The position numbers and the translations under genes were made by a program. 35,595 nt of DNA from Candidatus Oscillibacter excrementigallinarum. Its GTDB lineage: Bacteria > Bacillota > Clostridia > Oscillospirales > Oscillospiraceae. Positions 10,926 to 25,982 of the stretch are shown piece by piece. The notes beneath the pieces are model-generated. The model was given only the letters and a program-made list of their open reading frames with translations, had not been told where the DNA came from and did no database searches. The first letter of the stretch is position 1, and each line of letters opens with the position of its first letter. The stretch spans positions 1 to 35,595 of the forward strand of contig DWZJ01000012.1 of assembly GCA_019118245.1 (NCBI GenBank). The letters run 5' to 3'.

Positions 10926-12209
10926 TTACGCCTGGGCGTCCTTCTTCATCATGATGTCCAGGATGGTCTTGTCGGTCTGCACCATGCCGGGGGTGCTGAC
11001 CTGGCCCATGTTGCGGATGGCCTGCTCCGGCGTGGCGCCGCAGATGCCGTCCGTGGCCTGGAGGACCACGTCGCTCATGGCCAGCTGGGCGCACATGATG
11101 GCGGCGTTGGTGGCGGTGGCCAGCTTCAGGGCGCAGCCGATCTTGCCGCCGTCGCAGATCATGCCGGTGAGGTTGCCGCTCATGTTGATGATGGCCTTGC
11201 CGATCTGCTCGTCGCTGCCGCCCATCAGCCACACCATGGCGGCGGCCGCGGCGGTGGCGGCGGAGACGCCGCACCCGCAGGTGGCGGACAGCTTGCCGGT
11301 GAAGATCTTGATATACACGTTCAGGGTGTGGGAGAAGGCCAGTGCCTTTTCCAGCTGCTCCTTGGAGGAGCCCAGGTGCTTGGCCAGCTCCACCACGGGA
11401 ATGATGGCGGTGATGCCGTGGTTGCCGCTGCCGGCGCTGCTCATGACGGCGTAGGGGCAGCCGCTCATGCGGCCCTCGGCGCTGCTGGCCACCCGCAGCA
11501 TGGTCTCGGCGGCGAAGCCCTGGCCCAGCAGGTCTGCCTTCTTCAGGGCGGTGGCGATGCCCACGCCCAGGGTGTGCTCCAGGCCGAAGTCCGCCAGCTT
11601 CTCATTCATGTCCATGCCGTCCAGCATGAAGGACAGATCCGCCTCGCCGCACTGGTCCACCAGGGCGCGGATCTCCGCCACGGTCATGGGGGCCAGCCGC
11701 TCGTGGAGCTCGTCCTGGCCGCCGGCCACATACTCCTTCTTCACCAGCACGTCGTTGTTCCGCACCGTGAGGATGATGTTGGAGTGGGTGCCCCGGATCT
11801 CGCTGATGCCGATGCCGGCGGTGGTGATGACCTCCGCCCGGGCGTACAGCTGGGTCTCATCCTGCTTGATCATCACCACGACATGACGGTCCTCCACCAG
11901 CTGGATGGCCGCGTCGCTGACCTCCGGGGTGATGTCCTCCAGCAGCTGGAGGCTCTTGTCCGGGTTCCGCAGGCAGGCGCCCAGGGCGGCGGCGTACTTC
12001 AGTCCCACCCGGGAGAAGCCGGGGATGCCCACGCTCATGCCGTTCTTATAGATGCCGGGGTTGACCTCAACCTTGACGGAGACGATGTCGCCGCCGATGG
12101 CGTGGCTGGCGTCGGCGGTGGCCAGGGCCACGCACACGGGCTCCGTGCAGCCCAGGGCGGGGACCACCTCCTGGTGCAGCAGGGTCAGCAGTTCTTCTTT
12201 CGTGATCAT
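10926..12209 (-). CDS. L-cysteine desulfidase / serine dehydratase alpha-family protein (CyuA/YhaM-like)
   Basis: 427 aa, full length for the SDH-alpha (PF03313) UPF0597/CyuA branch. These Fe-S enzymes release H2S, ammonia and pyruvate from L-cysteine; E. coli CyuA and clostridial CdsB are examples. Cysteines fit for an Fe-S cluster are Cys21 (LGCTEP), Cys311/Cys313 (ATCGCGVS), Cys352 (MICDGGK) and Cys359. [17 protein letters not shown] (250-266) is another family hallmark. AAAGGAG precedes the ATG. It diverges from a sigma-54 activator gene and has a near-perfect sigma-54 promoter, which supports substrate-induced cysteine or serine degradation. Choice between cysteine and serine is inference from family and neighbours. 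Confidence 0.87.
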
Positions 12210-12278: not shown

Positions 12279-12293
12279 GCAAATCCCATGCCA
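12279..12293 (-). promoter_or_regulatory. Sigma-54 (-24/-12) promoter of the desulfidase gene
   Basis: The minus strand reads TGGCAT-N5-TTGC (12293-12279), followed by T; the consensus is TGGCAC-N5-TTGC(A/T), so only the last base of the -24 box differs. GG and GC are 10 bases apart as required. Transcription should start about 12 bases downstream of GC, leaving a leader of about 60 nt. A sigma-54 activator gene lies directly upstream. Confidence 0.85.
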
Positions 12294-12376
12294 ACTCTAT
12301 TTTGCCGGACCGGGCCTGAAAAATCAAGTGCTCCCCCTTGCAAATCTGTTGGAACTATGCAAAAATGGTCAAAGTA

Positions 12377-12389
12377 ACTGGTTAATTGG
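12377..12389. promoter_or_regulatory. Candidate activator (UAS) site upstream of the desulfidase promoter
   Basis: ACTGGTTAATTGG matches the motif ACTGGTCAACTGG at 14436-14448 in 11 of 13 positions. It lies about 85 bp upstream of the -24 box, a usual enhancer distance, and abuts the ribosome binding site of the activator gene, which would also allow autoregulation. A related TGGTCAA lies at 12366-12372. The function is inferred from position and recurrence only. Confidence 0.45.
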
Positions 12390-12401
12390 GAGGCGTGGTA
12401 C

Positions 12402-14468
12402 GTGGAAAAAAAGAAGATCTCCATCATCGCACTGGACCCCCGGGCCGCCCGGTCCTATGGCCGGGACGTGGAGGGCCTGTTCGGGGACGTGGCGGATATC
12501 TCCGTGTTCTCCGTGCGGGACGGGTCCGCCATGGGGGTGCTGCCCCACGCGGACCTGTTCGTGGCGTCCACGGACGCCTTCGGCTCCCCGGAGGAGCTGG
12601 CCCGCCACGTGCCCATCGACAGCCAGACCATGGCCATTGAGGTTTCCTTCCGCTGGCGGGAGCTGCGGCGGCTGAAGGAGCTGCCCGCCGGCAGCCGGGT
12701 GCTGTTCGTCAACATGACGGAGACCATGGCCCGGGAGGCCATCGCCCAGCTGGAGCAGTTCGGCATCACCCAGGTCCGCTGGATCCCCTTCTCCCCTGGA
12801 GCGGAGCTGCCGGCGGACGTCCATATCGCCGTGACGCCGGACGAGATGCGGTATGTGCCGGAGGAGATCGAGACCAAGATCGACATCGGCCAGCGGGCCT
12901 GCACCTCCGGCATGATGATCGAGATCGCCCTGCGGCTGGGACTGGAGCACCTGCTGGAGACGGAGAAGTTCCAGACCTATTTCCAATCCATCGCCACCAG
13001 CAACTACAGCTTTGACCAGATGTTTGCCCGGTCCATCCGGCTGGAGAGCCAGTTCCATATTTTAATGGAGACGCTGGAGGACGGCGTGGTGGGCGTCAAC
13101 GAAAAGGGCGAGGTCTTTGCCTGCAACCGCCACGCGGAGGAGATCACCCGCACCAGCGCCGACCTGGTGATGGGCAAGCCCGCCTCCCAGGTGTTTCCCT
13201 ATCTGCCCTTCTCCAAGTGTCTGCAGGAGCGGGAGCGGCTGCCGGTGAAGATCATCCGCCTCAACGGCGTCAACGTCAGCGCGGAGGTGGTGCCGGTGAT
13301 GCGGCAGAGCGCCTGCATCGGCGCCTTTGCCATCCTCCAGCGGTTCAACGACGTGGAGGCTCGGCAGAGCCAGCTGCGGGGCCAGCTGCTGCACAAGGGG
13401 TACCGGGCCAAATACGGCTTTGAGGACGTCATCGGGGAGTCGGAGGCCATCCAGCGGACCAAGGACGTGCTGCGGCGGATGGCCGCCAGTGAGAGCCCCA
13501 TCCTGCTGATCGGCGAGACCGGCACCGGCAAGGAGCTGTTCGCCCACGCGGTCCACCGGGCCTCCCGCAGGAAGGACGGGCCCTTTGTGGCCATCAATGT
13601 GGCGGCCTTCCCGGAAAACCTGCTGGAGAGCGAGCTATTCGGCTATGAGGAGGGGGCCTTCACCGGCGCCAAAAAGGGCGGCCGGCTGGGCCTGTTCGAG
13701 ATCTCCCACAGGGGCACGCTGTTTTTGGACGAGGTGGAGGGCATGAGCCTGTCCCTCCAGGTGAAGCTGCTGCGGGTGCTCCAGGAGCGGGAGATCATGC
13801 GGGTGGGCGGCACCTCCATCATCCCCATCGACGTGCGGATCGTGGCCGCCACCAACGAATCCCTGGAGCGAAAGGTGGCGGAGGGCACCTTCCGCCGGGA
13901 CCTCTACTATCGTCTGTGCACCCTGCCCATCGTCATCCCGCCCCTGTCGGAGCGGGGAGACGACCTCTTTTTGATCCTGGAGCAGTTCCAAAAGGAGCTG
14001 GGCGGCAGCTTCCGGCTGTCGCCCCAGGTGCGGGACTTTCTGAAGGGCTACGCCTGGCCCGGCAACATCCGGGAGCTGCGGAACGTGGTGGAGTATTTCC
14101 TTTACACCGGCCACGACCCCATCACCACGGAGGACCTGCCCCCCACGGTGCTCCATCAGATGCCCCATCCGGCCATTCGCAGGCCGCCGGAGGCATCGCC
14201 CCAGCCCCCCTCTGATGTGTTCCGCTTCGTGCTGGAGCAGCTGTATCAGGCGTCGGAGGCCCGGCAGCCCATCGGCCGGGACCGGCTGCTGGAGCTGGCC
14301 CACGAGGCCTTCCTCCCCACCTCCCAGCAGGAGATCCGGAGCATCCTGGCCCGCATGGCCCAGCAGGGGCTGGTCCGGGTCAGCCGGGGCCGGGGCGGCA
14401 GCCAGCTGACCCCGGAAGGGCGGCGGCTGTATGAAACTGGTCAACTGGCCTCAATAAATAACCAATAA
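12402..14468 (+). CDS. Sigma-54-dependent enhancer-binding transcriptional activator
   Basis: 688 aa, starting at GTG 12402 with TGGGAGG 8 bases upstream. Residues 1-~200 form a PrpR-N-like sensory region of unknown ligand. A PAS domain follows (about 222-330: [25 protein letters not shown]). The AAA+ domain (about 345-580) has Walker A GETGTGKE at 371-378, the sigma-54 contact loop GAFTGA at 418-423 and Walker B Asp443-Glu444. Instead of the usual Fis-type helix-turn-helix, the C-terminus (about 606-683) looks like a winged helix. Its neighbours on both sides have sigma-54 promoters, so it is the likely activator of both; in C. difficile a comparable activator (CdsR) controls the cysteine desulfidase CdsB, which is a precedent and not a proof of orthology. 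Confidence 0.93.
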
Positions 14469-14476
14469 AACCAATT
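14436..14476. promoter_or_regulatory. Candidate UAS cluster upstream of the lyase operon
   Basis: ACTGGTCAACTGG at 14436-14448 is two direct ACTGG half-sites; ACCAATAAAACCAATT at 14461-14476 is a similar pair in the opposite orientation. The first pair lies within the last codons of the activator gene, about 180 bp upstream of the -24 box at 14629. The same motif occurs upstream of the desulfidase promoter at 12377-12389. Confidence 0.42.
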
Positions 14477-14515
14477 GTTGTTAAAAAACGTGTACCGTGC
14501 CACGGTGCGGTCCCG

Positions 14516-14558
14516 CCGGGCGGCTTTGGCGAATCGCCAAAACCACCCGGTCCTTTTT
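14516..14558 (+). terminator. Terminator of the activator gene
   Basis: An imperfect GC-rich hairpin (arms 14516-14531 and 14535-14550 with two mismatches) is followed by TCCTTTTTT. It lies between the activator and the sigma-54 promoter of the next operon, isolating the two. Confidence 0.75.
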
Positions 14559-14628
14559 TGTAGGAACCTCTGAACCTGTCGGCTCTTTCCGGTATTTTCT
14601 GAGATGGTCGAGAGGAAGCTGCAATTTT

Positions 14629-14643
14629 TGGCACAATTTTTGC
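14629..14643 (+). promoter_or_regulatory. Sigma-54 (-24/-12) promoter of the lyase-symporter-RidA operon
   Basis: TGGCAC-N5-TTGC, followed by T, is a perfect consensus with the correct 10-base GG-GC spacing. It is 47 bp before the lyase start, so the leader would be about 35 nt. A TATAAT-like TATAATA at 14644-14650 just downstream lacks a -35 at a proper distance. Confidence 0.93.
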
Positions 14644-14689: not shown

Positions 14690-15865
14690 ATGACTGTGAC
14701 GTATCAATTTGACGCCATTGTGGACCGCTCCAATAACCACTCCGCCAAGTACGACGAGCGGAAGAAGAAATTTGGCACCGACGACGTGATCCCCCTGTGG
14801 ATCGCGGACATGGACTTCAAGACCGCCCAGCCCATCATCGACGCCCTGAAGGCCCGGGCCGAGGAGGGCATCTGGGGCTACACCGCCCGGCCGGACAGCT
14901 ATTTTGAGGCCATCCGGGGCTGGCAGAAGCGCCGCAACGGCTGGGACATCGACCAGAGCCTGATGAGCTTCAGCCTGGGCGTGGTGCAGACCCTCTCCGC
15001 CTGTGTGAAGCTGTTCACCCCGGAGGGGGGCAGCGTCCTGATCCAGACGCCGGTGTACTCTGAGTTCTATGACATGACCGAGGCCTGGAACCGCAAGGTC
15101 CTGGAAAACCAGTTCGTGGAGAAGGACGGCAAGTGGACCGTGGACTGGGCGGACTTTGAGGAGAAGCTGAAGGAGGCGGACCTGTTCCTGCTGTGCTCTC
15201 CCCACAACCCGCTGGGCATCGTCTGGACGGAGGAGGAGCTGCGCCGGATGATGGAGCTGTGCCTGCAGCATCATGTGCCGGTGGTCTCTGACGAGATCCA
15301 CTCCGACCTGATCTTCCACGGCAAGAAGCACATCCCCACCGCCTCCCTGTCCCCCGAGATCGCCGCCAACGTCATCACCGGCATCTCCGGCACCAAGACC
15401 TTCAACCTGGCGGGACTCCAGGCCAGCACGGTGGTGTTCCCCAACGCGCACAAGAAGCAGGTGTTCGACCACTACTGGCAGTGCATGGACATCCACCGGA
15501 ACAACGCCTTCTCCCTCACCGCCATGGAGGCGGCCTTCAACCAGGGCGAGGAGTGGCTGGAGCAGCTGCTGCCCTATCTCTCCGCCAACTTCGACTATGT
15601 GGTGGACTACTGCGAAAAGCACATCCCCAGGATCAAGACCTACGCCCCCGACGCCACCTATCTCATGTGGCTGGACTGCCGGGAGCTGGGGATGACCAAT
15701 GAGGAGCTCCACGACTTCATGATCCAGAAAGCCAAGCTGGGTCTCAACGACGGCTACTCCTTCGGCCGGAGCCTCAACGGCTATATGCGCCTCAACGCCG
15801 CCTGTCCCCGGGCCACCCTGGAGAAGGCCATGCGCCAGCTGGAGGCGGCCGTCAACAGCCTGTAA
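14690..15865 (+). CDS. PatB/MalY-type PLP-dependent C-S lyase (cystathionine beta-lyase-like)
   Basis: 391 aa, fold-type I aminotransferase family, MalY/PatB branch, which performs alpha,beta-elimination of cystathionine or cysteine-type substrates. Signatures are PLWIADMDF (35-43), GYTARPDSY (63-71), SPHNPLG (170-176), Asp201 in VVSDEIHSDL and the PLP lysine Lys236 in SGTKTFNLAGLQ. AAAGGAAGG at 14681-14689 abuts this ATG; the in-frame GTG at 14696 has better spacing, so the real start may be two codons later. It heads an operon with a symporter, RidA and a thiol protein. Products would be pyruvate, ammonia and a thiol or H2S, with free 2-aminoacrylate as intermediate. Confidence 0.88.
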   Translation: MTVTYQFDAIVDRSNNHSAKYDERKKKFGTDDVIPLWIADMDFKTAQPIIDALKARAEEGIWGYTARPDSYFEAIRGWQKRRNGWDIDQSLMSFSLGVVQTLSACVKLFTPEGGSVLIQTPVYSEFYDMTEAWNRKVLENQFVEKDGKWTVDWADFEEKLKEADLFLLCSPHNPLGIVWTEEELRRMMELCLQHHVPVVSDEIHSDLIFHGKKHIPTASLSPEIAANVITGISGTKTFNLAGLQASTVVFPNAHKKQVFDHYWQCMDIHRNNAFSLTAMEAAFNQGEEWLEQLLPYLSANFDYVVDYCEKHIPRIKTYAPDATYLMWLDCRELGMTNEELHDFMIQKAKLGLNDGYSFGRSLNGYMRLNAACPRATLEKAMRQLEAAVNSL

Positions 15866-15937: not shown

Positions 15938-17200
15938 ATGGCAACCATCGAAAAGAAGAGCTTCTGGCAGCAGTACGGAAGTCTCATCCTCATCCTGGGC
16001 GGCATCATCATCGGCGCGCTCATCGGCGCCTTTGCCCCCTCGGTAGGCACCACCATCAAGCCCATCGGTGACATCTTCCTGAACCTGCTGTTCACCATCG
16101 TGGTGCCCCTGGTGTTCGTGTCCATCGCGTCCGCCGTCGGCAGCATGGCCAACATGAAGCGCTTGGGCAAGGTGCTGGGCTCCACCATCGGGACCTTCAT
16201 TTTCACCGGCCTCATCGCCGCGGCCTGTGTGCTGGTGTGGGTCAACCTGTTCAGCCCCTCCGCCGGCACCACCATTGCCATGACCGCCAGCGAGGTCAGC
16301 GAGGCTCCCACCGCCAGTGAGCTGCTGGTCAGCAGTCTGACCGTGTCCGACTTCTCCGACCTGTGGGACAAGTCCAATATGCTGCCCCTGATCATCTTCG
16401 CCATCATCTTCGGCTTCTGCGTGTCCGCCTGCGGCGGTGACGAGAGCCCCATGGGCAAGCTGCTGAACAACTTGAACGAAATCATCATGAAGTTCGTGGG
16501 CGTCATCATGTTCGTCGCTCCCCTGGGCCTGGGCGCCTACTTCGCCAACCTGGTGGCCACCTACGGCCCCGAGATCGTGGGCGACTACGGCCGGTCCATG
16601 CTGGTATACTATCCCCTGTGCGCCCTGTACTTCATCATCTTCTTCCCCCTGTATTCCTTCCTGGCCGGCGGCAAGCAGGGCGTGAAGGTCATGTTCAAGC
16701 ACATCTTCCGCCCCGCCATCACCGCCTTTGCCACCCAGTCCTCCGCCGCCACCATCCCGGTGAACAAGGAGGCCTGCAACTCCATCGGCGTGCCCGAGGA
16801 CATCAGCGACCTGGTGCTGCCCATGGGCTGCACCATGCACATGGACGGCTCCGTCCTCAGCTCCATCGTGAAGATCGCCTTCCTGTACGGCATCTTTGAT
16901 ATGCAGTTCACCGGCGCGGACACCTATGCCATGGCCATCATCGTGGCCATCCTGTCCGCCTTCGTCCTCTCCGGCGCCCCCGGCGGCGGCCTGGTGGGCG
17001 AGATGCTGATCGTCTCCATGTTCAACTTCCCCGCCGAGGCCTTCCCCATCATCGCCACCCTGGGCTTCATCTTCGACCCCGCCGCCACCTGCCTGAACTC
17101 CTCCGGCGACACCATCGCCTCCATGATGGTCACCCGGATCGTGGAGGGCAAGGACTGGCTGGTGAAGGCCACGGCCGCCAAGAAGGCGGAGCAGGCCTGA
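15938..17200 (+). CDS. DAACS-family sodium (or proton):amino acid symporter, probably for neutral substrates
   Basis: 420 aa, about eight membrane helices plus two re-entrant hairpins, as in GltPh. HP1 carries QSSAATIP (267-274); TM7 reads GCTMHMDGS (297-305) where most members have a NMDGT motif. TM8 reads DPAATCLNSSGD from Asp380 to Asp391. Aligned to GltPh, Asp380 matches D394 (amino group binding), Thr384 T398, Asn387 N401 and Asp391 D405, but Ala383 replaces Arg397, which binds the side-chain carboxylate of aspartate. The carrier is therefore unlikely to take acidic amino acids; serine, threonine or cysteine fit the neighbours. AAAAGGAGA lies 7 bases before the ATG. It follows the lyase gene by 72 bp. 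Confidence 0.9.
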   Translation: MATIEKKSFWQQYGSLILILGGIIIGALIGAFAPSVGTTIKPIGDIFLNLLFTIVVPLVFVSIASAVGSMANMKRLGKVLGSTIGTFIFTGLIAAACVLVWVNLFSPSAGTTIAMTASEVSEAPTASELLVSSLTVSDFSDLWDKSNMLPLIIFAIIFGFCVSACGGDESPMGKLLNNLNEIIMKFVGVIMFVAPLGLGAYFANLVATYGPEIVGDYGRSMLVYYPLCALYFIIFFPLYSFLAGGKQGVKVMFKHIFRPAITAFATQSSAATIPVNKEACNSIGVPEDISDLVLPMGCTMHMDGSVLSSIVKIAFLYGIFDMQFTGADTYAMAIIVAILSAFVLSGAPGGGLVGEMLIVSMFNFPAEAFPIIATLGFIFDPAATCLNSSGDTIASMMVTRIVEGKDWLVKATAAKKAEQA

Positions 17201-17255: not shown

Positions 17256-17624
17256 ATGAACGTCATCGATACCAAGAACGCCCCCGGCGCCATCGGCCCC
17301 TATTCCCAGGCCTACGAGGCCAATGGCTTCGTCATCACCTCCGGCCAGCTGCCGGTAAACCCCGCCGACGGCTCCATGCCCGACGGCATCGCCGCCCAGG
17401 CAGACCAGAGCTGCAAGAACGTGGGCGCCATCCTGGAGGCCGCCGGCTCCGGCTTTGACAAGGTGGTCAAGACCACCTGCTTCCTGGCAGACATCGCCGA
17501 CTTCGCCGCCTTCAACGAGGTGTATGCCAAGTATTTCACCTCCAAGCCCGCCCGCAGCTGCTTCGCCGTGAAGGACCTGCCCAAGGGCGCCCTGTGCGAG
17601 ATTGAGGCCATCGCGGTCAAGTAA
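17256..17624 (+). CDS. ridA: RidA-family 2-iminobutanoate/2-iminopropanoate deaminase
   Basis: 122 aa, single-domain YjgF/YER057c/UK114 protein. RidA hydrolyses enamine/imine products of PLP enzymes, notably 2-aminoacrylate, to keto acid and ammonia, and so protects other PLP enzymes. The key Arg100 (KPARSCFAV) and Glu115 (CEIEAIAV) match E. coli R105 and E120, and GPYSQA and TSGQLPVNP are standard. AAAAGGAG lies before the ATG. Its place after a C-S lyase and symporter fits the removal of 2-aminoacrylate made by that lyase or the divergent desulfidase. Confidence 0.95.
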   Translation: MNVIDTKNAPGAIGPYSQAYEANGFVITSGQLPVNPADGSMPDGIAAQADQSCKNVGAILEAAGSGFDKVVKTTCFLADIADFAAFNEVYAKYFTSKPARSCFAVKDLPKGALCEIEAIAVK

Positions 17625-17636
17625 GGAGGCGCGGAT

Positions 17637-17888
17637 ATGAAGGTCACCGTCATCGGCAGCCATCTGTGCCCCGACACGCTGTACGCCCTCAACAAGCTCA
17701 GCGAGGCCAAGGCGGATATCGAGTTCAAGAATCTCTCCGCCAGCCTGCCGGACCTGAAGGCCTATCTGGCCCTGCGGGACAGCAGCCCCCTGTATGATGC
17801 CGTCAAGAAAAACGGCGGCATCGGCATCCCGGCCTTTGTCCTGGAGGACGGCACCGTCACCCTGTACCTGGCGGATGTGCTGAAATAA
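17637..17888 (+). CDS. Small glutaredoxin-like protein with CPDT motif
   Basis: 83 aa, thioredoxin-fold glutaredoxin-like: beta strand KVTVIGS, active-site motif CPDT at 11-14 (a monothiol form lacking the second Cys), then a cis-Pro region GGIGIPAFVLEDG. It follows ridA by 12 bases with a GGAGG ribosome binding site and is the last gene before the terminator. Placement suggests a role in thiol or polysulfide handling linked to cysteine breakdown, but its partner is unknown. It has no other cysteine, so any disulfide must be with glutathione-like thiols or another protein. Confidence 0.8.
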   Translation: MKVTVIGSHLCPDTLYALNKLSEAKADIEFKNLSASLPDLKAYLALRDSSPLYDAVKKNGGIGIPAFVLEDGTVTLYLADVLK

Positions 17889-18200: not shown

Positions 18201-19400
18201 TCATTCCATCAGCAGCGAGGCCAGGTACGCCGTCTCCGTCCGCAAGTCTGTGGGGCCGGTGTACCCCACCGCCAGCACCCGCCGCCCCAGCCGGGCCACG
18301 GCATATTGGATGGTATCGCCGTCCTCGTACCGGGTCTCCGTCCACCAGAAGCCGTCCAGCGCACTGGCGGGCACCGGCTCAGCTGTGCCAGGGACCCAGG
18401 CCAGAAAGCCGGGCTGCTCCGCCAGCAGCTCTTCCGCCAGCTCTGCCGCGAGCCCCTCTGTCAGCATCTCGTAATAGGCCGTGGCGGCCCGCGGCCTCCG
18501 CTCCGCCCCTTCGTGCCAGGGGGCGGTCTGGTCCACCCAGTACATTCTGGGCGCCAGCTCTTGGCACTTGGTCCGAATGCGGAAGTATTCCACATTCTGT
18601 GCCCCATCCAGCGCCCGCAGGTCCACATACCGGACCTCCTGCTTTGGGCTCCCGTCCTCTTCCGCACTCCAAGTAAAGTGAGGGCCGGTCCCATAGGACA
18701 GCCCCATGCCGACAAAGCACATGGCATAGAACAGACACATCAGCAGATACGCGGCGCCGCCAAAAATCTGCCCCCGGCGGTAAGGCCTCGGCCGGGTCAG
18801 GGGCACACCCGCGGTCAGTGTCCGCCACAGGCCCCGCATATTCCGGACGTTGAGCACGATCTGTATGAGCCCGAGGATGCTGAGGGGCACCGCACACAGC
18901 CAGTAGCCCGGCAGGGCATCCTCGACGGCGTTCAGCAGGGGCGCGCTGACGATGAACCAGTTCAGAATACACACGCCCACGAACACTGCCAAAAGCAGGG
19001 ACGTCCAGATCAGGGACCGGGCCATCCGACGCTTCAGATACCGGTACCCCTCCCCCTGGACCACCGGGTCCGTGTCCAGCTCCGGGGCGGCTGGGTCATC
19101 ACACCGCCAGACCCAGAAGGGGCCCAGCTGTCCCACCAGCTGCCAGCCCATGACCCGGTAAGCCTCCACCCGCTCCGGGTTCAGCGTCTCTTTTCTCCGC
19201 TGGAGGGGCTGGAGCCGGAAGCGGCTCTCCCTGGGCTCGTCCGGCAGGAGTTCCACCTGGGCGCCTGTGAAGCCCACAGGCCGGTAGCCCCTGCGGGCCA
19301 GGTCCTCCAGCCAGGTCTCCACCGCCGCCACGTCATAGAGGCTGATGGGGCAGGTCTCCCGGAATTTCTCATTTTTTACGTAAGGATGGCCGGTGCTCAT
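18201..19400 (-). CDS. DUF2812-like membrane protein, paralog A
   Basis: 399 aa and the most diverged of four tandem paralogs. The N-terminal soluble part (about 1-130) has the family pattern: DVAAVETWLEDLARRGYRPVGF, a basic RFRLQPLQRRK stretch, YRVMGWQLV, then WRCDDPAAPELDTDP. About three membrane helices follow (near 137-155, 167-190 and 218-236), then a C-terminal domain of roughly 160 residues. DUF2812 genes are commonly next to PadR regulators and have no assigned activity. It starts 15 bases after paralog B stops, with GGAGGGGG before the ATG. It lacks the AAVLAEF C-terminus shared by the other three. Confidence 0.8.
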   Translation of the reverse strand: MSTGHPYVKNEKFRETCPISLYDVAAVETWLEDLARRGYRPVGFTGAQVELLPDEPRESRFRLQPLQRRKETLNPERVEAYRVMGWQLVGQLGPFWVWRCDDPAAPELDTDPVVQGEGYRYLKRRMARSLIWTSLLLAVFVGVCILNWFIVSAPLLNAVEDALPGYWLCAVPLSILGLIQIVLNVRNMRGLWRTLTAGVPLTRPRPYRRGQIFGGAAYLLMCLFYAMCFVGMGLSYGTGPHFTWSAEEDGSPKQEVRYVDLRALDGAQNVEYFRIRTKCQELAPRMYWVDQTAPWHEGAERRPRAATAYYEMLTEGLAAELAEELLAEQPGFLAWVPGTAEPVPASALDGFWWTETRYEDGDTIQYAVARLGRRVLAVGYTGPTDLRTETAYLASLLME

Positions 19401-19415
19401 TCGTGTCCCCCTCCT

Positions 19416-20531
19416 CTACCGAAACTCCGCCAGGACGGCGGCGTATTGGGGCAGCAGTTCCGCCAGCGGCGCGTCTGTCTCCGCCTCCACGCTCCACACC
19501 TGGTCCCCCAGCCGGAGCAGCAGATACTGATCGCCGTTCACCGCCGCCCCGGTCCAGGCCTCGTCCAGGCCGGGGTATTCGGTCTCCGTGGGGGCATATT
19601 CGTCCCCGTACTCCGCCAGGAGACTGTCCGCCAGGTCGTCCGCCAGAGACGGGAAGCGGAGGCGGTAATACCGGGCTTCGCTGTACCGATAGTACCGCCG
19701 CCCCTCCGTATAGTCCTCTATGGTCCACCACTGTTCGCTGGTGAGCCAGTTCTCCTGGGGACCTGCCACCACTTCCCCGTTCTGGGACACCGCCACATAG
19801 GGCACCGGCTCGGCAATGTCCTTCAGCTGATAAAACGTCTGGCGGCTGGTGTGGGCCCCGTGGCACCAGACGGCGACGATATAGAACACCCATAGCAGAT
19901 CGATCACCAATGTCAGGAAACAGGCCAGCCGGTAGGGCCGCCGGCGTGGCGCCTCCACACCGGCCCGCATGGTCCGTAAGGCTCGCCGCAGGACGCGGGT
20001 CTGCCACCGGGCCATCTTGCCGACTGCCCAAAAAAAGCCCACACACGCCGCCAGATACCACAGGGGCAGCCAGCTTCCCACCAGATGTGCCAGGTACGTC
20101 TCCCCAGAAGAGTATAGGGTAAAGGCGATGAGCCCCACGAGGACTGCCAAGATCCCCCAGCTGAGATACTTGTTGATTCTCTCCTGCCGGGAGAGGCGGT
20201 CATAGGCCCGTGCCTCTGTCTCCGGGTCCGTGTGGAGCTCCGGAGCCTCCGGGTCGTCGCACCGCCACAGGTGCATGGTCTTTCCGATGGTGTCCACGTA
20301 CTCCCAGCCCAGGAAACGGTAGGTGTCCCGGCGCTCCCAGTCCGGGCATTTCTCCTTTTTGGCCGCGGGCTCCAGCCGGTAACGGACGGCCTTGGGCGTT
20401 CCCCATTCAAAAGAGGCAAAACCGAACCAAATCCAGCTGGGAACGTAAAACCAGCCCTTGGCGGCCAGGTCCTCCAAACGCGCCTGCCAGGCGGCCACGT
20501 CCTCCACGTACCCCGGCATCAGCTTGACCAT
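19416..20531 (-). CDS. DUF2812-like membrane protein, paralog B
   Basis: 371 aa, closest to paralog C. The N-terminal domain has EDVAAWQARLEDLAAKGWF, KAVRYRLEPA, YRFLGWEYVDT and LWRCDDPEAPELHTDP, the last shared almost exactly with C. About three membrane helices are near 125-150, 152-172 and 205-230. The C-terminal region reads YYRLRFPSLADDLADSLLAEY, then PGLDEAWTG, LRLGDQVWS and YAAVLAEFR at the end. The role is unknown. It lies 21 bases after paralog C and 15 before A, so the array is one operon. The duplicated 3' ends keep near-identical DNA (for example around 19431 and 20562). Confidence 0.82.
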   Translation of the reverse strand: MVKLMPGYVEDVAAWQARLEDLAAKGWFYVPSWIWFGFASFEWGTPKAVRYRLEPAAKKEKCPDWERRDTYRFLGWEYVDTIGKTMHLWRCDDPEAPELHTDPETEARAYDRLSRQERINKYLSWGILAVLVGLIAFTLYSSGETYLAHLVGSWLPLWYLAACVGFFWAVGKMARWQTRVLRRALRTMRAGVEAPRRRPYRLACFLTLVIDLLWVFYIVAVWCHGAHTSRQTFYQLKDIAEPVPYVAVSQNGEVVAGPQENWLTSEQWWTIEDYTEGRRYYRYSEARYYRLRFPSLADDLADSLLAEYGDEYAPTETEYPGLDEAWTGAAVNGDQYLLLRLGDQVWSVEAETDAPLAELLPQYAAVLAEFR

Positions 20532-20552
20532 GGTGCTTCCCCCTCTCGTTTT

Positions 20553-21656
20553 CTATTGGAACTCCGCCAGGACGGCGGCGTATCGCTCCGCCAGTTCCAC
20601 CGTGGGCTCCGTGGTGCCGGTGGAGATGCTCCACACCTGGTCCCCCAGCCGGACCACCAGGAACCAATACCCGTAGTCGCTGCGGGTGGACACCCAGGCC
20701 TCGTCCAGGCCGGGGACCTGCCAGGCGGTGACGGGCCAGCCCTTCTCCTCATAGTCCGCCAGGATGCTCTCCACCAGATCGTCCGCCGTCCAGGGGAACC
20801 GGAGGCGGTAGTAGCGGTTCTCTGTCTCCCAGCCGCCCATGCCCTCAAAGGTCCACCACTGGTCCGTGGTGAGCCAGTTGTCCCAGTGAAGGGCCTGCAC
20901 GCTGTTCCGTCCCTGTTCTGTGACATATGGGATGGGCGCATCGATGGTCTCCGCTGGTTCAAAGGGCCGCGATCTGGGGTCTGCCATGTCGGCGCAGAGC
21001 GATGCGATGTAGAATCCCCACAGCAGCATGACCGCCACAGACAGCCAGCAGGCCAGCCGGTAGGGTCGCCCGTGGGGCGCGGGTACGCCCGCCCGGAGGA
21101 GCCGCAGATACCGCCGCAGAGACCACCACTGCTGGAACGCCGCCAACGCAAGTGCCAGCAGAAAGCCCCAATAGGCGGCCTCCCGCCACAGCGGCTGCCA
21201 CTCCTCCACACGCCAGGTGAAAAGAGTTCTGTCTGTCAGGAGAGTCTGTATCGCCAGCACGGCCAGAAGCGCGGTGATTGCGGCCCAGAACTGCGTCACC
21301 TTTCGATGCCGGCAAAACAGCCGGTCATAGGCCTGGGCCTCCGTCTCCGGGTCTGTGTGGAGCTCCGGGGCCTCCGGGTCGTCGCAGCGCCACAGGTGCA
21401 TGGACTTGCCGGAGGTATCCACATACTCCCAGCCCATGGCCCGGTAGGCCGCCAGACGCTCCGGGTCCGGGCGGCTCTCCTTCACCGGGGCGGGCTCCAG
21501 CCGGTAGCGGACCGCCTTGGGCTCTCCCTTCTCAAAGACCGCCAGGAAGAAAATGCCGGGGACCGAGGCGGCGAACCACCCCCGGGCCGCCTGGTCCTCC
21601 ATCCGGGCCTGCTGGGCGGCCACGTCATAGATGTTCATGGGCATCAGCTTCAGCAC
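20553..21656 (-). CDS. DUF2812-like membrane protein, paralog C
   Basis: 367 aa. The same order of motifs as paralog B: YDVAAQQARMEDQAARGWF, KAVRYRLEPA, YRAMGWEYVDT, LWRCDDPEAPELHTDP, then about three membrane helices (near 125-148, 158-178 and 205-228), and a C-terminal YYRLRFPWTADDLVESILADY, PGLDEAW, VVRLGDQVWS and YAAVLAEFQ. B and C are clearly the most recent duplicates. It follows paralog D by 17 bases. Topology puts the C-terminal 130-140 residues on the outside if the N-terminus is cytoplasmic and there are three helices; this is inference. Confidence 0.82.
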   Translation of the reverse strand: MLKLMPMNIYDVAAQQARMEDQAARGWFAASVPGIFFLAVFEKGEPKAVRYRLEPAPVKESRPDPERLAAYRAMGWEYVDTSGKSMHLWRCDDPEAPELHTDPETEAQAYDRLFCRHRKVTQFWAAITALLAVLAIQTLLTDRTLFTWRVEEWQPLWREAAYWGFLLALALAAFQQWWSLRRYLRLLRAGVPAPHGRPYRLACWLSVAVMLLWGFYIASLCADMADPRSRPFEPAETIDAPIPYVTEQGRNSVQALHWDNWLTTDQWWTFEGMGGWETENRYYRLRFPWTADDLVESILADYEEKGWPVTAWQVPGLDEAWVSTRSDYGYWFLVVRLGDQVWSISTGTTEPTVELAERYAAVLAEFQ

Positions 21657-21673
21657 GGTGTCTCCTCCTCTCT

Positions 21674-22819
21674 CTATTGGAACTCCGCCAGGACAGCGGC
21701 GAAATCGTCCAGGTGAGCGGATAGGTCTCCATGGAGCCGGACCGCTTGATAAATGACCGCCCGTCCCTGCCGGGCCACCAGAAGCTGCCGTGCGCGGCCA
21801 TCATTAGTTCCTGTGCCGTTGTCCAGCAGGGCCACTTGGTCGAATCGGGAATCCTGATGCACAGTGACCGCAGCTCTTGGCAGACGCGTTTCGGCTTCTG
21901 ACAGCCATTCTTGATACAGCAGATCCGCCAGGGGCGCGGCACAAACCCGAGCCATCTTTGCCTCCAGATAGGGTCCCTCCCATTGAAATTCCTCTACGCT
22001 CCGTAGGGTGAGCAGCAGCCCCCCGCTCTCCCGATAAAACGCCGCATCCATCGGTAACACGGCCTCCTCCGGGGCCAGCACCTCCATGGCCACATAGGGC
22101 AACGGCTCCGGCGCGTCGGACAGGGGCATCTCCCGCTGGCCGGCAGCAAGGCCCACCACGAACACATACAGCAGAACGATCGTTGCCCAGCCGATCACCT
22201 CAGACCGCATCCGTCGTTTTACGGCTCTGGCCGGGTCTCCCCGCTCCAGGGGGACACCCGCCTCCAGCTGCTTTCGCTGACGCCGGATGCCCCGGATCTG
22301 CCGGGCCAGCCGCCAGAGCTCCCCTCCCACAAACAACACCACAAACAGCCAGACGGCCCACATCCCCCGGAGGAACAGCTCCACCACATTGTCGCTGAAA
22401 AGATCGTCAAATTGCAGCGCCGTCCACACGGCCAGAAGCAGCAGCGCCAGCGCATTTCGCCGCACGGTCCGCTTCAGCAGCTTCTCCCAGGCCCAGGCCT
22501 GGCTGGCGGGGTCTGTGTACAGGTCCGGGGCCGCTGGGTCGAAGCAGTAGTAGACCAGATAGCCGTCCCCCAGGGGACAGGCCCGGCGCCAACCCATGTC
22601 CCGGTACAGGGCGTCCGCCTCCTCCTGCTCCACCTGGATCCGCTGGCTCTGGGGGTCCAGCCGTACCCGGCAGGGGCGGGGCTCTATCCGCTCGAATCGG
22701 GGATAGGAGCCCCACTTCTCCAGGATCCAGCCCTGGGCGGCCTTCTCCTCCAGCCAGGCCTCGATGGTGCCCACGTCCCACAGGTCCATGGGGGCCAGGA
22801 ATCGCTTGTGGTTTTTCAT
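21674..22819 (-). CDS. DUF2812-like membrane protein, paralog D
   Basis: 381 aa, first DUF2812 gene after the repressor; its ATG overlaps the padR-type stop (ATGA at 22819-22816). The N-terminal domain has WDVGTIEAWLEEKAAQGWIL, RVRLDP, YRDMGWRRA and FDPAAPDLYTDP. Membrane helices are near 124-142, 150-168 and 212-230. The C-terminus ends AAVLAEFQ as in C. Tight coupling with PadR means the repressor and the membrane protein are made together. Function unknown. Confidence 0.82.
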   Translation of the reverse strand: MKNHKRFLAPMDLWDVGTIEAWLEEKAAQGWILEKWGSYPRFERIEPRPCRVRLDPQSQRIQVEQEEADALYRDMGWRRACPLGDGYLVYYCFDPAAPDLYTDPASQAWAWEKLLKRTVRRNALALLLLAVWTALQFDDLFSDNVVELFLRGMWAVWLFVVLFVGGELWRLARQIRGIRRQRKQLEAGVPLERGDPARAVKRRMRSEVIGWATIVLLYVFVVGLAAGQREMPLSDAPEPLPYVAMEVLAPEEAVLPMDAAFYRESGGLLLTLRSVEEFQWEGPYLEAKMARVCAAPLADLLYQEWLSEAETRLPRAAVTVHQDSRFDQVALLDNGTGTNDGRARQLLVARQGRAVIYQAVRLHGDLSAHLDDFAAVLAEFQ

Positions 22820-23172
22820 GTCGGTTCCTCCTCTCTCCGCCCCGGCAGCAGGTGTTCCGCCGCCCGCTCCTCCCGTTCGCCGTCGGCCACGCAGAGCCGC
22901 AGGCGGCTCAGCTCCTGCCGGAACAGGGCCCGGCCCCGGTCCGTGATGGCGTAGGTCCGCTTCCGGCCCTCCACCGCCGTCTCCCGGATCAAGCCCTCCT
23001 CCTGGAATTTTGCCAGAATGGTGTACAGGGTCCCCGGCCCCAGAGGCACCCGGCCGGCGGTGGCGTCGTCCACATACTGGACGATCTCCGTGCCGCACCG
23101 CTCCTGCCGCAGCAGGCTCAGCAGCACGTAGAACATACTCTCTGTCAGGACTTTCAGCGGCTCCCTGGCCAT
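22816..23172 (-). CDS. PadR-family transcriptional repressor
   Basis: 118 aa with the PadR winged helix: TESMFYVLLSLLRQERCGTEI, LGPGTLYTILAKFQEEGLI (recognition helix and wing, about 50-70) and KRTYAITDRGRALF, then a short C-terminal dimer helix. The ATG at 23172 follows GGGAGGGAG. An upstream in-frame extension would run through the promoter and operators, so I reject it. Two ATATCG-N5-CGATAT palindromes at the promoter are the likely binding sites, giving negative autoregulation of the whole DUF2812 operon. PadR-DUF2812 pairing is a recurrent arrangement in Firmicutes. Confidence 0.92.
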   Translation of the reverse strand: MAREPLKVLTESMFYVLLSLLRQERCGTEIVQYVDDATAGRVPLGPGTLYTILAKFQEEGLIRETAVEGRKRTYAITDRGRALFRQELSRLRLCVADGEREERAAEHLLPGRREEEPT

Positions 23173-23186
23173 GGTCTCCCTCCCCG

Positions 23187-23203
23187 ATATCGAAACACGA
23201 TAT
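23187..23203. promoter_or_regulatory. PadR operator 2 (near transcription start)
   Basis: ATATCG-AAACA-CGATAT, a 6-5-6 palindrome with the same half-sites and spacing as operator 1, with centre 34 bp away. It would cover about +5 to +21 of the transcript, just before the ribosome binding site. Confidence 0.72.
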
Positions 23204-23214
23204 TCCTTGATTTC

Positions 23215-23243
23215 ACTATAATATCGTTTCACGATATTGTCAA
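23215..23243 (-). promoter_or_regulatory. Promoter of the PadR-DUF2812 operon
   Basis: On the minus strand a perfect TTGACA (23243-23238) and TATAGT (23220-23215) with a 17-bp spacer. The spacer is the operator palindrome itself. Confidence 0.88.
23220..23238. promoter_or_regulatory. PadR operator 1 (inside the -35/-10 spacer)
   Basis: AATATCGT-TTC-ACGATATT is a perfect 8-3-8 palindrome containing the ATATCG-N5-CGATAT core. It occupies the whole promoter spacer, so a bound PadR dimer would block RNA polymerase. Confidence 0.8.
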
Positions 23244-25052: not shown

Positions 25053-25982
25053 TCAGTTCTGGAACATGGGGGTGGAGAGATACCGCTCCCCGCTGTCCGG
25101 CAGCAGGGCCACGATGGTCTTGCCCGCGTTCTCCGGCCGCACCGCCAGCTGGGCCGCCGCCCACACGGCGGCGCCGGAGGTGATGCCCACCAGGATGCCC
25201 TCGGTCCGGGCCAGCTCCCGGCCTGTGGCATAGGCGTCTCCGTCGGTGACCGTCAGGATCTCGTCCAGGACGCCGCGGTCCAGGTTCTCCGGCACGAAGT
25301 TGGCGCCGATGCCCTGGAGGCCGTGGGGGCCCGCATGGCCCTCCGTCAGCAGGGGCGAGGAGGCGGGCTCAAAGGCTACGATCTGGATCTTCGGGTTCTG
25401 GGCCTTCAGATACCGGCCCACGCCGCTGACGGTGCCGCCGGTGCCGGCGCCGGCCACGAAGATGTCCACCTTTCCCTCGGTGTCCGCCCAGATCTCCGGG
25501 CCGGTGGTCCGCTCGTGGGCCTCCGGGTTGGCGGGGTTCTCAAACTGCCCGGCGATGATGCTGCCGGGGATGCTCCGGTGGAGCTCCTCCGCCTTGGCCA
25601 CCGCCCCGGCCATGCCCTCCGCGCCCGGCGTCAAGACGATCTCCGCGCCGTAGGCGGCGATCAGGGCCCGGCGCTCCACGCTCATGGTGTCCGGCATGGT
25701 GAGGATCACGTGATACCCCTTGGCGGCGGCCACGGCGGCCAGGCCGATGCCGGTGTTGCCGGAGGTGGGCTCGAGGATGGTGCCGCCGGGGGCCAGACGG
25801 CCCTCCGCCTCCGCCCGGGCGATCATGTTGGCGGCCACCCGGTCCTTGGCGCTGCCGGCGGGGTTCCCGCACTCCAGCTTGGCCAGCACCGTGGCCCCCA
25901 GGCCGTGGTGTTTCTCGTAGTTGCACAGCTCCAGCAGGGGCGTGCGGCCGATCAGCTCTGTGACGCTGTGATAGATGGGCAT
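25053..25982 (-). CDS. cysK: Cysteine synthase A (O-acetylserine sulfhydrylase)
   Basis: 309 aa, fold-type II PLP enzyme making L-cysteine from O-acetylserine and sulfide. The PLP lysine is Lys46 in NPAGSAKDR; the substrate loop EPTSGNTGIG follows at about 71-80, then GAGTGGTVSGVGRYLK as the phosphate-binding loop region and GITSGAAVWAA near the C-terminus. GGGAGGG precedes the ATG at 25982. It is monocistronic here. Together with the desulfidase and lyase at 10926-15865 the window encodes both synthesis and breakdown of cysteine, which would need opposite control. Confidence 0.96.
   Translation of the reverse strand: MPIYHSVTELIGRTPLLELCNYEKHHGLGATVLAKLECGNPAGSAKDRVAANMIARAEAEGRLAPGGTILEPTSGNTGIGLAAVAAAKGYHVILTMPDTMSVERRALIAAYGAEIVLTPGAEGMAGAVAKAEELHRSIPGSIIAGQFENPANPEAHERTTGPEIWADTEGKVDIFVAGAGTGGTVSGVGRYLKAQNPKIQIVAFEPASSPLLTEGHAGPHGLQGIGANFVPENLDRGVLDEILTVTDGDAYATGRELARTEGILVGITSGAAVWAAAQLAVRPENAGKTIVALLPDSGERYLSTPMFQN

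Follow-up and report, generated by a model that had tools for sequence, protein, structure and literature searches.

A probable two-promoter sigma-54 regulon for thiol amino acid breakdown, with its activator gene between the promoters, in Candidatus Oscillibacter excrementigallinarum

Two described systems come close to the locus reported here. In C. difficile, the cysteine desulfidase gene cdsB has a mapped sigma-54 promoter with a start 63 bp before the start codon; its expression needs SigL and the activator CdsR, and is induced by cysteine and not by cysteine by-products (PMC5767170). Under the conditions of a later study, regulation of cdsB by SigL was not seen (PMC7438776). For Flavonifractor, Lachnoclostridium and others, a sigma-54 activator named XcyR, with a reportedly distinct upstream activator sequence (UAS), has been predicted for a malY operon (PMC6615313). 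The kind of switch is thus already known, with CdsR-cdsB and the predicted XcyR-malY regulon as its precedents. Here we analyze a 35,595-base stretch of DNA, "the window", which is one contig (C104) of a draft genome of Candidatus Oscillibacter excrementigallinarum (2,408,516 bases in 108 contigs, 96% complete). Like the cdsB region, the window has a sigma-54 promoter before a cysteine desulfidase gene (cyuA) and an adjacent activator with a GAFTGA motif; it differs in having a second target operon, which carries patB, a symporter gene and ridA. We are confident, short of certainty, that the locus is a one-component sigma-54 regulon in which a shared activator, encoded between the two target promoters, serves both. 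The promoters, the repeats of the activator site, their conservation and the families of the enzymes are read from the sequences. No description of this combination was recognised in searches of the open-licence PMC literature.

The promoter of the desulfidase gene (TGGCATGGGATTTGC, positions 12279-12293, minus strand) and that of the patB operon (TGGCACAATTTTTGC, 14629-14643, plus strand) are the only two places in the window that match TGGCAY-N5-TTGC without a mismatch. The first-pass annotation had described them as near-perfect -24/-12 elements; they are exact matches, and rare genome-wide. When up to two mismatches were allowed, the window yielded 37 matches, compared with 66 expected from shuffled sequences. 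Only perfect matches are therefore meaningful, and the other candidates, with one or two mismatches, were dropped. The extended pattern TGGCAYRN4TTGCW occurs three times in the whole genome, at both window sites and at C53:103-118, and its reversed control occurs once. The rpoN gene, whose absence had been named as grounds for giving up the proposal, was found on contig C53 (PF04552, E 1e-53). In a set of 86 genomes of the same genus, rpoN was found in 29 of the 34 that have a relative of the activator and in 32 of the 52 that do not (Fisher p 0.015). Eight of those 34 genomes were chosen by hand for site scans and have 3 to 11 perfect extended sites apiece, so that the number of sigma-54 targets in some relatives exceeds that in the host genome.

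Both promoters are conserved. When the genome collection was queried with the activator, 115 relatives were found, and the loci of the best 80 of these were analyzed; their titles include Oscillibacter, Flavonifractor, Gemmiger, Enterocloster and Lachnospiraceae. Promoter regions were drawn from 81 sequences (the 80 loci and the window) by a procedure that was blind to motifs, with exclusion of cases where the gene was not in place or the contig end was reached, and regions of more than 400 bases were trimmed to the 400 closest to the start codon. The resulting sets number 54 regions on the cyuA side and 74 on the patB side, and since the loci are akin to one another the counts are not independent. 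A sigma-54 site with at most one mismatch is present on the coding strand of all 54 cyuA-side regions (45 exact, 9 with one mismatch; window included) and of all 74 patB-side regions (58 exact, 16 with one mismatch; window included). At the same tolerance the reversed pattern was found in 0/54 and 2/74 regions, respectively, and the true pattern, read on the other strand, in 0/54 and 6/74; some of the loci in the last group truly have a further divergent sigma-54 site.

A second conserved element, of which the earlier annotation made no mention, was recognized upstream of both promoters by reading the related regions side by side. This element is the repeat RACCANTT. An initial activator-site pattern, AAYTGGTYAAYTGG, came from visual comparison of the two sites in the window and was therefore circular; it was replaced by footprinting across loci. 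On the cyuA side of the window, the half-sites AACCAGTT (12376-12383) and GACCATTT (12363-12370) form a putative UAS at 12363-12383 on the minus strand, with a spacing of 13 bp, 70-90 bp upstream of the cyuA -24 box. The corresponding region of the patB promoter spans 14435-14476, with one half-site at 14435-14442 (minus strand), inside the 3' end of the activator gene, and another at 14469-14476 (plus strand). RACCANTT occurs 96 times in the cyuA-side regions, compared with 5.6 in shuffles (about 17-fold), and 139 times in the patB-side regions, compared with 10.0 (about 14-fold); at least one copy is present in 51/54 and 66/74 regions, respectively. Its density is 6.61 per kb in the promoter regions and 0.204 per kb in the remainder of these loci. 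Unguided word counts gave the same signal: among six-letter words common to both sides TAACCA ranked top, above the -24 word TGGCAC, with occurrences in 38/54 cyuA-side regions (5.3 expected) and 55/74 patB-side regions (10.3 expected), and among seven-letter words the -24 word was first and TTAACCA second. All 96 cyuA-side copies have the same orientation, and 25 pairs are spaced by 13 bp. The median distances to the -24 box, 85 bases on the cyuA side and 162 bases on the patB side, are near the range of 100-250 bp given for UAS in Clostridiales (PMC6615313). The presence of the repeats on both sides connects the two promoters with the intervening activator gene. Together with the conservation of the promoters, it supports the earlier assignment to sigma-54 and the proposal that one activator serves both.

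The half-site pair was also sought genome-wide. With up to two mismatches allowed, the host genome has one match, at 12363-12383, which is itself without mismatches. With up to one mismatch, the eight chosen genomes have 11 matches, eight of which, one per genome, have the activator gene on one side and a perfect divergent sigma-54 site on the other. One of the remainder is beside another sigma-54 site in genome G122, and two are elsewhere. At C172:44512-45660, G122 has a second activator relative (49% identity over the first 330 residues) with a perfect sigma-54 site of its own and an adjoining activator-site pair with one mismatch. Among 20 stretches encoding more distant activators, four (L183, L185, L191 and L196, counted by eye) have a RACCANTT half-site that precedes a sigma-54 site by at most about 170 bases; the motif is thus neither general to the wider family nor confined to the window's group.

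The activator gene (12402-14468, plus strand) encodes a 688-residue protein that domain matches, alignment and predicted structure identify as a bacterial enhancer-binding protein (bEBP). Its parts are an alpha/beta N-terminal domain (residues 1-196), a PAS domain (about 221-314), an AAA+ domain with GAFTGA at 418-423, and a predicted C-terminal winged helix (about 605-678). The AAA+ sigma-54 interaction domain matches PF00158 at 2.3e-67, and the GAFTGA motif, G418 to A423, is invariant across an alignment (A1) of 49 hand-chosen sequences with identities of 42-88%; the protein thus has the AAA+ domain with GAFTGA that marks a bEBP. Those 49 members match 24 families at E <= 0.01, and the Fis helix-turn-helix (HTH), PF02954, is absent from these. 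A Fis-type HTH is reported for 335 Clostridiales enhancer-binding proteins (Nie et al., PMC6615313), and is not mandatory for every bEBP. Winged-helix-type families were matched in a few of the 49, and the AlphaFold2 model has a C-terminal winged helix with a confidence (pLDDT) mostly above 90. We predict from the model that the activator is of an unusual type, with a winged helix in place of the usual Fis HTH. The model of the full protein has a pTM of 0.46, so that only its single domains were used; modelled alone, the N-terminal domain has a mean pLDDT of 89.7 and a pTM of 0.81. That domain matched no Pfam family, and a fold search returned no solved match at E <= 0.001; weaker LacI-type and binding-protein-like matches were seen, from which we draw nothing. 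An identity with PrpR, raised by the order of the domains, was dropped, as PF06506 (PrpR_N) is also not among the 24 families. A wider search of 391 genomes sampled from the class found the N-terminal domain in 32; in each of the 20 stretches taken from those 32, the domain and the winged-helix profile occur together in a single protein. On a tree of the activators, reduced by similarity from 106 to 86 rows, the window's group is a 69-row clade with SH-aLRT support of 100, though many branches are long and the deeper order is unsure. CdsR has 591 residues, the architecture PAS-AAA-Fis and a putative inverted-repeat UAS (PMC5767170), whereas the window's activator is longer, carries an additional N-terminal domain and a predicted winged helix, and has its cyuA-side repeats on the same strand. 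Membership in CdsR was rejected for these differences, chiefly that in the DNA-binding domain; the activator would work like CdsR but is not CdsR.

The cyuA-side half-sites may also serve the activator's own expression. The sequence TTGCAA at 12338-12343 (plus strand), 25 bases 5' of the half-site at 12363, is a putative -35 element of a sigma-70-type promoter of the activator gene. In many loci a TTGACA or TTGCAA box stands 25 or 45-47 bases before the first cyuA-side half-site; TTG[AC]NA occurs within 80 bases in 42/54 loci, at a distance of 25 in 23 and of 45-47 in 12, counts without a matched control. A sigma-70 scan of the window gave no site above threshold, and the element is therefore proposed on the strength of the related loci. 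The activator site would then lie over the gene's putative promoter or start region, just before the start codon, as its counterparts appear to do in related loci; this suggests autorepression, by which the activator would probably limit its own synthesis. At the other end of the gene, an inverted repeat with 17-nt arms (88% complementary) followed by a T-rich stretch, at 14516-14550 on the plus strand, is likely to be its terminator, between the activator site and the patB promoter; it was not among the three sites returned by a terminator scan.

The divergent gene (10926-12209, minus strand, start ATG at 12209) encodes a cyuA-type L-cysteine desulfidase (PF03313, 1.6e-54). Its solved relatives at E <= 0.001 are only L-cysteine desulfidases, the closest at E 2.6e-28. 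MmCyuA of Methanococcus has a cluster of Cys287, 289, 329 and 336 and a Cys23-Glu25 dyad that sets CyuA apart from SdaA/B, and serine is described as an inhibitor of an archaeal homologue (PMC12647591). All six of these signature residues are present in the window's protein, as C22, E24, C312, C314, C353 and C360 (in a numbering that counts one residue ahead of the ATG), and are kept in 93-100% of 54 sequences, the lowest being C22 at 93%. The model for the L-serine dehydratase alpha chain scores 18.9 bits on the protein, with a cut-off of 243.2. On the six residues, cysteine is better supported than serine as the substrate.

The patB operon begins with a gene for a PatB/MalY-family C-S beta-lyase (14690-15865, plus strand, as are the three that follow; TIGR04350, 477.7 bits with a cut-off of 340), which has solved PatB and MalY relatives. 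The second gene (15938-17200; PF00375, 1.9e-99) encodes an SDF-family amino acid symporter. In SDF transporters for acidic amino acids, the last substrate-binding helix has an arginine that binds the acidic side chain. At the position of that arginine in a solved aspartate transporter, 64 of 65 sequences (window included) have alanine and one has glycine, and the symporter, lacking this mark of the acidic type, is predicted to carry a neutral amino acid. The third gene (17256-17624; TIGR00004, 160.5 bits with a cut-off of 106.25) encodes a RidA-type enamine/imine deaminase, an enzyme of 2-aminoacrylate removal. The fourth (17637-17888) encodes a small conserved protein of 83 residues, in which C11, D13 and T14 are conserved. 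This protein has no solved relative at E <= 10 and matched Pfam only weakly (Thioredoxin_9, E 0.11); one homologue matched Glutaredoxin at E 0.021 and two matched nothing, and the protein is perhaps thioredoxin- or glutaredoxin-like. The E. coli CyuPA system likewise pairs an importer with an inducible cysteine desulfidase (PMC9040844), under a different regulator, CyuR (PMC11408624).

PatB was found at >=55% identity in 73 of the 80 loci, the symporter (55%) in 63, CyuA at >=60% in 55, the small protein at >=45% in 51 and RidA (55%) in 41. Where the flank was long enough, PatB is downstream of the activator in 70/73 loci and CyuA upstream in 50/67. To our knowledge CyuR is not a sigma-54 activator, and the E. 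coli CyuPA operon has neither patB nor ridA. Six loci (L061, L066, L068, L071, L080 and L049) were picked for a third sigma-54 site that diverges from patB. In all of these except L049, where no long open reading frame was found behind it, the site precedes a long frame with a similar start sequence; the only one scanned, in L061, is a pyridine-nucleotide disulfide reductase with a rhodanese domain, which points to thiol and sulfane sulfur chemistry. Half-sites lie at most 400 bases upstream of the third site in five of the six, in a stretch that overlaps the patB-side region, so that they could belong to either promoter. The first-pass annotation had assigned the products to a single pathway of import, C-S cleavage or deamination, and 2-aminoacrylate removal, an assignment that is supported by the conservation of the promoters and by the shared activator site. 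Its description of the pathway as thiol/hydroxy amino acid breakdown holds up in the thiol part, for which the CyuA residues, PatB, RidA, the neutral-type symporter and, in some relatives, the third promoter before a disulfide-reductase-type frame all speak; the hydroxy (serine) part is weak in view of the cysteine-desulfidase structures, the low dehydratase score and the inhibition by serine.

We propose the following mechanism. A cytoplasmic metabolite of the catabolism of cysteine (or of cystine or a C-S compound) would be sensed by the N-terminal and PAS domains, and the C-terminal winged helix would bind the RACCANTT repeats. The bound activator would then loop onto the sigma-54 polymerase at each promoter, where the AAA+ domain with GAFTGA would open sigma-54 RNA polymerase at the divergent cyuA and the downstream patB promoters; a single inducer would be common to both. 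The symporter would bring in the amino acid, CyuA and PatB would split the C-S bond to give pyruvate, ammonia and sulfide or a thiol, and RidA would clear 2-aminoacrylate. A more far-reaching proposal, to which we give somewhat less than even credence, is that the protein represents a sigma-54 activator class of its own, in which the sensor domain is undescribed and a winged helix reads tandem same-strand ACCA repeats 13 bp apart. In that proposal the gene would be a bidirectional hub, in which the first site activates the divergent desulfidase promoter and shuts the activator's own sigma-70 promoter, and the second, at the gene's own 3' end, activates the lyase-importer operon. The locus offers a regulatory model for the production of sulfide and pyruvate from cysteine in gut Oscillospiraceae and Lachnospiraceae, the repeats are a ready activator site for finding further targets, and the protein points to a group of sigma-54 activators with DNA-binding and sensor domains unlike the textbook ones.

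Several observations weigh against the shared regulon, and are set beside its rivals here. RACCANTT is absent from 3/54 cyuA-side and 8/74 patB-side regions. The patB-side copies occur in both orientations (92 and 47), which leaves the binding geometry there unclear, and the window's own patB-side half-sites are opposed, with a spacing other than 13 bp. The reversed control of the pair, at up to two mismatches, has three matches in the host genome; the eight related genomes hold two unexplained pair matches and four matches to the reversed control. Finally, rpoN was not found in 5 of the 34 same-genus genomes that have an activator relative, all five of which are incomplete (65-93%). That the -24/-12 matches arose by chance and have no function is nonetheless a reading to which we give practically no weight: by their sequence conservation on both sides, set against the reversed-pattern controls, and by their rarity in the genome, the two sites are not chance matches. 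As for separate activators for the two promoters, the host genome does have a second candidate, since a search at E <= 1e-60 returned two activators, that of the window and one on C53 that might control the patB promoter. Across loci, however, both promoters have the same repeats beside them, and the C53 activator adjoins rpoN and another perfect sigma-54 site, so we regard this arrangement as very improbable.

The two remaining alternatives bear on what the regulon responds to and whether it has been named before. In the first, a sharper form of the two-promoter regulon, the signal is a substrate of PatB (cystathionine, an S-conjugate or a cysteinyl peptide) and the desulfidase is a later addition. 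The counts above make patB the steadier partner of the activator. In L085, L092, L103, L109 and L114, which come from Enterocloster and other Lachnospiraceae, the symporter after patB is replaced by an AbgT-type carrier (judged by its start sequence), followed in L085, L092 and L114 by an M24-type peptidase (the L085 proteins alone were scanned). On the activator tree the presence of cyuA requires 12 changes, 11 of them forced by starred branches, a figure that is an overcount because short same-genus loci, including the window's row, were unscored for cyuA. Five loci without a divergent cyuA (L076, L077, L078, L083 and L088) nevertheless have a distant cyuA paralogue (30-36% identity) downstream of the operon, which points back to cysteine, and we find this version possible but lean away from it. 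The second alternative, compatible with the shared regulon, is that we have met the XcyR regulon (malY-pepT-hyp) predicted by Nie et al. in 2019, in more genomes. An activator 57% identical to that of the window precedes patB in Flavonifractor plautii (L113), and Flavonifractor and Lachnoclostridium are listed for XcyR with malY as its target; that entry, which carries the label peptide degradation, does not name cdsB/cyuA, a symporter or ridA (PMC6615313). XcyR may be the same activator, and could be so with a smaller reconstructed regulon; we judge the identity to be a little short of an even call.

Some activators of the wider family appear to serve other genes. In L192 and L201 an activator with the window-type N-terminal and winged-helix profiles is beside a gene like that for gamma-glutamyl-GABA hydrolase and a permease gene; the best model in L192 is gamma-glutamyl-GABA hydrolase at 95.8 bits, below the cut-off of 266. 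These loci differ from the window in their targets and fall outside its group on the tree. The regulon described for GamR is puuDT (PMC6615313, PMC7438776), and we infer that L192 and L201 are GamR loci.

The third perfect site of the host genome, C53:103-118 (L035), precedes a gene cut by the contig end and is beside the second activator, whose C-terminus is Fis-like by eye and whose gene is directly followed by rpoN. In G203, of the same genus (L245), the counterpart genes encode an enoyl-CoA hydratase, a CoA-transferase, an HpaB-family protein and an acyl-CoA dehydrogenase, and the site perhaps heads a sigma-54 operon of butyrate type. Elsewhere in the window, a cysteine synthase gene (cysK, 25053-25982) has no perfect sigma-54 site, and 18201-23232 on the minus strand encodes four tandem DUF2812 proteins together with a PadR regulator.

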